Source of the DNA: Effusibacillus dendaii
GTDB taxonomy: Bacteria > Bacillota > Bacilli > Tumebacillales > Effusibacillaceae
DNA length: 64,000 nt
Assembly: GCF_015097055.1 (NCBI RefSeq)
Contig: NZ_AP023366.1
Span: 968,501-1,032,500, forward strand
Direction: 5' to 3'
A program made the position numbers and the translations under genes. Below, piece after piece: positions 58,880 to 59,879 of the stretch (position 1 is its first letter; every line of letters begins with the position of its first letter). Under the pieces are notes generated by a model. It searched no databases. It was not told where the DNA came from and saw only the letters and a program-made list of their open reading frames with translations.

Positions 58880-58909
58880 TTGACCGGTAAATGCAGTGTA
58901 TTGTACAAT
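58880..58909 (+). promoter_or_regulatory. Sigma-A promoter of the tryptophan T-box leader
   Basis: TTGACC (58880-58885) and TACAAT (58904-58909) are 18 bases apart and precede the T-box leader. Confidence 0.75.
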
Positions 58910-58915
58910 ATAGGA

Positions 58916-59220
58916 AAATCATAACAACGAGGAAAAAGGGTAAGTAAACATGCGTGTACGGATTGCAGAGAGCCGATGGTTGCTGCGAATCGGTGTCTGG
59001 CGGATGGTTGAATAGCCTTTCGAGTTGCTTTACCGAACCACCTGGGTGCAGTAGGAAAAGCCGGGGTTCCCGCCGTTATCAAGGGAACGGTATCGAGCCG
59101 TTGATGTCAAAGCTCTGTACCGGCAGGAGTGGATCTGAACCTCGCTTTACAATGCGAGGATCATGATCAATTAAGATGGTACCACGAGAACTTCGTCCTT
59201 ATTCAGGCGAAGTTTTTTTA
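58916..59220 (+). promoter_or_regulatory. T-box riboswitch, tryptophan, before the trpS pseudogene
   Basis: The leader has Stem I sequence (GCAGAGAGCCGATGGTTGC, TGCGAATCGG), a candidate specifier TGG (Trp, 59043-59045) in CCACCTGGGTGC, the T-box GATGGTACCACGA (59175-59187) and a terminator with 7-bp arms AACTTCG/CGAAGTT (59189-59195, 59208-59214) and seven T. It precedes the degraded trpS, so it no longer controls a whole enzyme. Confidence 0.85.
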
Positions 59221-59236
59221 TTTGACAAAGGCGGTG

Positions 59237-59879
59237 ATGGCCATGGAGGATGGCTGGCGGTGGCGACTTGATTGGGAGAAACTAGATGAGATGAATTATG
59301 GGTTTCTCGGTTATCCGGTCAGTCAGGCAGCTGATATTACCTTTTGTAAAGCAAGCATCGTCCCTGCAGGTGACGATCAACTTCCTCATTTGGAGCTTAC
59401 CCGCAAAATAGTACGGCGTTACAACGAGTTGTATAAGCCTATACTAGTTGAACCGCAACCTTTAATCGATGAGTAAGAGCTTGGGCAACGCGATTGAACT
59501 GGATTCCTCACCCGAAGACATTGCATTCAAAATACGTCTGGCGGTTACCGACCCTGCTCGTATTCACAAGAATGATCCCGGGCATCCGAATATCTGCCCG
59601 ATTTACGCCTACCACCGTACGTTTCGTTCGGAAGGATCGGAGGAAATCCGCGAAGGTTGCGAGAAGGGAACAATCGGATGCGCCGGATGCAAGCAACTTG
59701 TCACTGCAGCCATCCAACAGCTCCTCGAGCTGATGCAGGAACGCCGATCCTACTATGAGGTCAGACCGAAAAAAGTGGATGACATCCTGATGAGCGGAAC
59801 TGTCCGCGCTCGTGTGTTGGCACGCGAAACTATGGTCGAGGTGCGGGAGGCCATGGGGCTCAATTACTTTAATAGGTAA
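59237..59879 (+). pseudogene. trpS: Tryptophanyl-tRNA synthetase, N-terminus lost and frameshifted
   Basis: From about 59289 the frame reads [21 protein letters not shown] and [23 protein letters not shown], the second half of bacterial TrpS. It stops at 59476; the KMSKS part ([18 protein letters not shown]) starts in another frame at 59469 and runs to 59879 (ETMVEVREAMGLNYF). About 12 residues before KMSKS are missing at the junction. The Rossmann half with the HIGH motif is gone, replaced by about 18 unrelated residues. It cannot charge tRNA; a working TrpS must be encoded elsewhere. Confidence 0.85.

Follow-up and report, generated by a model that had tools for sequence, protein, structure and literature searches.

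What is a T-box leader doing in front of a synthetase gene that is itself broken: does it still sense tRNA-Trp, or is it a relic? The question is raised by a locus in the window, the whole 64,000-nucleotide stretch of DNA analysed here (C1:968501-1032500 of the single-contig Effusibacillus dendaii genome of 3,454,394 bases). Comparison of this locus with its relatives suggests that it is probably the dead remnant of a horizontally acquired auxiliary synthetase gene, trpS2, together with a two-stage control region made up of the T-box and a short leader ORF. The parts of the locus, in window positions, are as follows.

58880-58909, plus strand: promoter-like site, TTGACC-18-TACAAT, 10 of 12 consensus positions
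58921-59203, plus strand: T-box leader, degenerate (RF00230, 101 bits)
59013-59015, plus strand: specifier position, UAG in place of the UGG of relatives (leader comparison)
59176, plus strand: antiterminator position, A in place of the G of 41/41 relatives scored (leader comparison)
59186-59217, plus strand: terminator-like hairpin (intrinsic terminator), then a T-rich stretch (-13.7 kcal/mol)
59243-59275, plus strand: remnant of a Trp-codon leader ORF, 11 residues (alternative starts 59234 and 59237)
59276-59476, plus strand: middle of TrpS2, which a deletion has placed in frame behind the leader ORF; ended by a stop (tRNA-synt_1b)
59469-59879, plus strand: C-terminal part of TrpS2 in a different frame, past a 41-base loss (tRNA-synt_1b)
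59977-60162, plus strand: piece of an aminoacyl-tRNA editing domain, in the same extra region (PF04073, E 9.5e-8)
60368-61615, minus strand: transposase, in a stretch present twice in the genome

Parts of the locus

Analysis of the leader revealed a full-length match to RF00230 (model positions 1-219, E 4.2e-21) that exceeds the gathering score of 93, and Stem I, the T-box sequence and the terminator are present as in other members of this family. Promoter-like sites of the kind found at 58880-58909 number four between 58700 and 59400, compared with 1.2 +/- 1.1 in shuffles, and a similar TTGACA/TACAAT pair was seen by eye at the equivalent place in the relative G016. An earlier, sequence-only reading of this DNA had named a promoter, a T-box and a terminator, followed by a trpS gene without its N-terminal part and with a frameshift; our analysis bears out each of these elements. 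Past the leader, the plus strand carries TrpS fragments and the short editing-domain piece (which we take to be YbaK-like) and nothing else before the transposase on the opposite strand, which is presumably of the IS110 type, as judged from its sequence.

Other RNA elements were also found. The window contains a second T-box (27019-27294, minus strand, 111 bits), in which the triplet AUC after GAAU suggests, by eye, an Ile specifier, and a PyrR binding site (RF00515; 15419-15533, minus strand, 58.2 bits). Across the whole genome, 13 T-box matches reach E 0.001 or better (L004-L016), and six of them exceed the gathering score.

Broken TrpS2 and its origin

Both TrpS pieces match tRNA-synt_1b, the ORF ending at 59476 at positions 126-185 and the piece at 59469-59879 at positions 199-291; on TIGR00233 the same two pieces cover positions 119-180 and 191-328. 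Comparison with intact relatives revealed that about 118 first codons are gone from the window trpS2, with a net loss of about 380 bases, and that a second loss, of 41 bases just before MSKS, shifts the frame. The window TrpS2 is incomplete: the HLGH-containing N-terminal part is absent and the KMSKS region is cut by the 41-base loss.

The same genome encodes an intact TrpS1 (C1:3288509-3289483), which is 77-83% identical to the trpS of three genomes of the same genus, each with a single trpS match. With the second TrpS of G016 the window pieces share 81% and 70% identity, compared with 39% and 30% with the TrpS1 of their own genome. In a tree of 59 rows and 199 columns (L169 left out), the remnant is placed inside a clade of 15 whose other members belong to Paenibacillaceae or to family f8, presumably Paenibacillaceae as well, with support of 100/99. 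The genes flanking the region, which we take to encode a PanE-type reductase and a TerC-type membrane protein, are neighbours in the three same-genus genomes, which have no TrpS2. About 230 nt separate the two open frames in one of these genomes (L211) and one further ORF lies between them in the other two (L212 and L213); in the window the same interval is occupied by the T-box, the TrpS2 pieces, the editing-domain piece and the transposase.

The simplest reading of these sequence comparisons is that an extra synthetase was imported, apparently from a Paenibacillus-like bacterium, and is now decaying. The sequence-only reading had considered replacement by a second TrpS likely, but the roles are reversed: TrpS1 is intact, and it is the additional, apparently imported TrpS2 that is broken. 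A native trpS in the course of replacement was ruled out, TrpS1 being both intact and the copy common to the genus. That reading had also called for the working trpS and its leader to be sought in the genome; the gene was found in TrpS1, but the 6 kb around it (L017) gave no match to any Rfam family, T-box included, at E 0.01 or better.

In G011, another genome of the same order, a second TrpS was likewise observed that seems to be broken. It is found in two places (L054 and L055), with partial matches at positions 2-253, with a stop, and 23-328, and one of the two places has a T-box at 92 bits.

Leader ORF with Trp codons

The stretch just past the terminator in the window reads AAAGGCGG-TG-ATG-GCC-ATG-GAG-GAT-GGC-TGG-CGG-TGG. 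Here a Shine-Dalgarno-like site accompanies a leader ORF that contains Trp codons and may start at 59234, 59237 or 59243, a feature absent from the sequence-only reading. The equivalent stretch before trpS2 contains TGG-TGG-TGG in G016 and TGG-TGG in G039; in the window the second Trp codon is changed to CGG at 59258. The window leader ORF is open in frame into the middle of TrpS, where it ends at a stop at 59474-59476.

Occurrence of this leader in intact relatives was analysed in 110 TrpS2 loci, namely the best 80 of 567 relatives and the 30 loci given for 71 matches. The motif [MV][DES][DEK][GC]W[WRY], scored within 400 nt upstream of trpS2, was found in 43 of the 110 loci listed, 42 of them non-redundant. 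The remaining 67 loci listed lack the leader ORF, which counts against the reading preferred here; among them are Clostridia, Spirochaetes and further distant lineages, and some have a T-box (L084, L087). A T-box match lies upstream in all 42 leader-bearing loci, over the gathering score in 33 and below it in nine, the weakest at 36.1 bits (L160); the matches of L148 and L149 are recorded under L058 and L057, which are the same places. All 42 leaders have the first Trp codon, 40 have the second and 18 have a third. The Asp, Glu and Gly codons of the leader vary among synonyms while the Trp codons are kept, which points to the peptide as the conserved thing.

Analysis of the linkers between the Trp codons and the trpS2 start revealed that the leader frame is open up to that start in 40 of the 42 loci (which are related and not independent cases), compared with 13.5 expected from shuffled linkers; for the remaining two frames the counts are 9 and 16. 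Linker length is 1 mod 3 in 39 loci, where it takes 12 values between 37 and 91 nt, and 0 mod 3 in the other three. In 39 of 42 loci the leader ORF reaches into trpS2 in a different frame and terminates there after 68-164 nt, the distance being 104 or 107 nt in 22 of them. The three exceptions are L149 (G016), in which the leader is in frame and open through trpS2, and L172 and L173, in which it stops before trpS2. An AGGAGG-like site (5 or 6 of 6 positions) precedes trpS2 in 39 of 42, the trpS2 start having been picked by script as the best AGGAGG match.

An exact form of the leader pattern, which misses variants, gave 18 sites, one in each of 18 of the 398 genomes. The 17 sites found in other genomes are, by their coordinates, next to TrpS2 matches. 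A leader standing before other genes was rejected on this basis, as the 17 sites beyond the window genome adjoin TrpS2 matches.

The intact form probably works in two stages. In the first, uncharged tRNA-Trp would pair with the UGG specifier and with the T-box bulge, and this pairing would let RNA polymerase pass the terminator. For the second stage, the resulting transcript would have the leader ORF M[D/E]DGWW..., along with a ribosome site for it. A shortage of Trp-tRNA would stall ribosomes at the leader Trp codons, so that the ribosome site of trpS2 stays accessible; with ample Trp-tRNA they would instead translate past the trpS2 start, end roughly 100 nt within the gene and thereby keep trpS2 off. 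Occlusion of the trpS2 start is suggested because the leader ORF overlaps trpS2. Eight single folds (L169 left out) showed, by eye, no shared RNA structure covering the ribosome site of trpS2, and this counts against the proposal.

We cautiously favour the view that an auxiliary TrpS of Paenibacillaceae, and of some other Bacilli, is placed under two serial sensors of Trp-tRNA charging, a T-box and an out-of-frame, overlapping leader ORF whose completed translation would occlude the synthetase start, and that the window holds a broken copy of this arrangement outside its usual host group. Two-stage tRNA-Trp sensing, known from anti-TRAP, may in that case extend to the control of a spare synthetase, whose gene the leader ORF overlaps.

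The Trp-rich ORF of the relatives could instead be no regulator at all, being either a chance frame or an N-terminal extension of TrpS2 reached by frameshifting or by direct fusion. Such an extension agrees with the in-frame leader of G016 (L149) and with a trpS2 frame that is open back to the leader start in 6 of 24 overlapping loci (L068, L070, L071, L074, L081 and L161), a set obtained with a stricter motif than the 42-locus count; in the other 18 of the 24, however, the trpS2 frame does not stay open through the leader. A chance frame is at odds with the excess of open linkers and the single frame kept in 39 of 42 loci, as well as with the retention of Trp codons next to freely varying synonyms for Asp, Glu and Gly, and trpS2 has its own AGGAGG-like site in nearly all of these loci. 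We therefore consider it unlikely that the ORF is no regulator. A general N-terminal extension of TrpS2 was rejected as a rule, trpS2 lying in a different frame in 39 of the 40 open leaders, and a programmed frameshift from leader to trpS2 is not general, the trpS2 frame being closed in three-quarters of the overlapping set.

State of the window sensor

Turning to the preferred reading, in which the window locus is the dead remnant of an acquired trpS2 with its two-stage control region, the condition of the T-box itself is of importance. The triplet directly after the conserved GAA, in the Stem I internal loop, is UAG in the window (59013-59015). UGG is found at this place in 40 of the 41 related leaders scored (L169 left out, as for the antiterminator counts below), and none was located in L160. 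The sequence-only reading had assigned a UGG specifier to the window leader, and this assignment did not hold: the in-register triplet is UAG, and the UGG present at 59005-59007 lies before GAA, out of register. The specifier codon of the window T-box does not match the amino acid of the trpS gene downstream, which together with one lost antiterminator pair sets this leader apart from a typical Trp T-box of RF00230. Pattern search revealed two tRNA-Trp genes in the genome, both with anticodon CCA and ending in GCCA; the CCA anticodon is mismatched to UAG at the middle base.

The antiterminator stretch is AAGA in the window compared with AAGG in 37 and AGGG in four of the 41 relatives. As drawn, the antiterminator has an energy of -0.2 kcal/mol in the window, with one pair lost, compared with -2.2 kcal/mol in G016, and the terminator stretches of the two fold at -13.7 and -14.1 kcal/mol, respectively. 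The window T-box is UGGU, the U of which would face G73; UGGU occurs in 21 and UGGC in 20 of the 41 relatives, and it was not counted as damage because 21 relatives share it.

Overall, the window sensor is probably dead, as judged from these base changes. Given the UAG specifier, the lost antiterminator pair and the fusion of the leader to TrpS2, any transcript of it would be expected to end at the terminator. A count against this comes from the 55 columns conserved at >=95%, in a comparison from which L169 was left out, in which Stem I is missing from many rows (the extract being too short where insertions are long) and which does not cover the specifier column: the window departs at two of them (59176 and 59258) and the median leader at one, and so the RNA part has barely decayed.

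The sequence-only reading had offered two outcomes for this leader, a recent relic or a tRNA-Trp sensor with a new output. For the second, candidate outputs are a short RNA and the polypeptide encoded by the leader-TrpS2 fusion, and the retention of the promoter, of most of the T-box and of the terminator is in its favour, as are the small number of changed conserved columns and the leader ORF that is open into the TrpS2 fragment, giving a protein of about 78 residues. A sensor of tRNA-Trp would nevertheless have to work with a UAG specifier facing a CCA anticodon and with an antiterminator that has lost a pair, and the fused fragment is without the HLGH-containing N-terminal part and the MSKS part. 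With only TrpS and editing-domain fragments on the plus strand downstream, we regard continued sensing as improbable. The idea of a recent relic, in contrast, gains support from the two deletions in the gene, the changed specifier and the lost antiterminator pair beside a terminator that is still strong.

It is very improbable that the breaks are assembly errors and that trpS2 is intact. Strain skT53 was sequenced with PacBio RS II reads and no short-read polishing is mentioned (PMC8297450), which would allow for such errors; the same source gives 1,362 Mb of filtered subreads for the 3.45 Mb genome, nearly 400-fold, while losses of about 380 and 41 bases are untypical of small read errors and both leader changes are substitutions. 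A switch of specificity to a tRNA reading UAG is scarcely credible: the specifier is exactly UAG, with GAA and the flanks kept, but this is a single G>A change beside other decay, with a broken gene downstream.

The dead-remnant reading has two consequences. An RF00230 match alone would wrongly label the window copy as a working Trp sensor. The window copy may also illustrate how such a cassette dies, with specifier, antiterminator and gene damaged while promoter and terminator persist.

Among the relatives, L160 (G382) has its 36.1-bit T-box before an intact-looking trpS2. By eye, the specifier side of Stem I is seemingly missing and extra sequence precedes the kept leader ORF; this is perhaps another leader in decay.

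Comparison with known systems

The arrangement found in intact relatives resembles the leader of the anti-TRAP operon, which likewise consists of a Trp T-box with UGG specifier, a terminator, a ribosome site, a short Trp-codon ORF and the gene. For B. subtilis, a T-box survey includes anti-TRAP with a Trp T-box (PMC2494555), and complete translation of RtpLP, a peptide with three Trp codons, is reported to prevent translation of rtpA (PMC2311275); the primary anti-TRAP papers, Chen and Yanofsky 2003 and 2004, are those cited in PMC11255114. The systems differ in the gene served, which is the auxiliary trpS2 and not rtpA, and in the end of the leader ORF. A Trp T-box upstream and consecutive Trp codons between terminator and gene are found in the intact relatives as for rtpLP. 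Unlike rtpLP, which stops before its gene, just ahead of the ribosome site, the leader is open to the trpS2 start in 40 of the 42 relatives and overlaps the gene start in 39.

Sixteen anti-TRAP-like loci were read (L178-L193; L193 scores under the family cut-off), and a script picked out a leader containing two closely spaced Trp codons in one of them, L178. This locus has a T-box at 121.9 bits followed by MDDGWWCITDQ, with the stop 14 nt before the rtpA match. By eye, L180 has an ORF with a single Trp; no leader was found in the remaining 14.

Streptomyces avermitilis likewise has a second trpS, trpS2, with a candidate attenuator described upstream of it (PMC1262725). It is presented there as a classical attenuator in Actinobacteria, and the accessible part of the source mentions no T-box for this trpS2. 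Among the matches listed by a full-text literature search (titles and abstracts), with subscription papers mostly outside its scope, nothing described a T-box together with a leader ORF before trpS in Bacilli.

A shorter ORF was observed in L104 (Lutispora saccharofermentans). It encodes the nine residues MKDGWWYLF and stops 30 nt before the trpS2 match, and is perhaps an rtpLP-like leader outside Bacilli.
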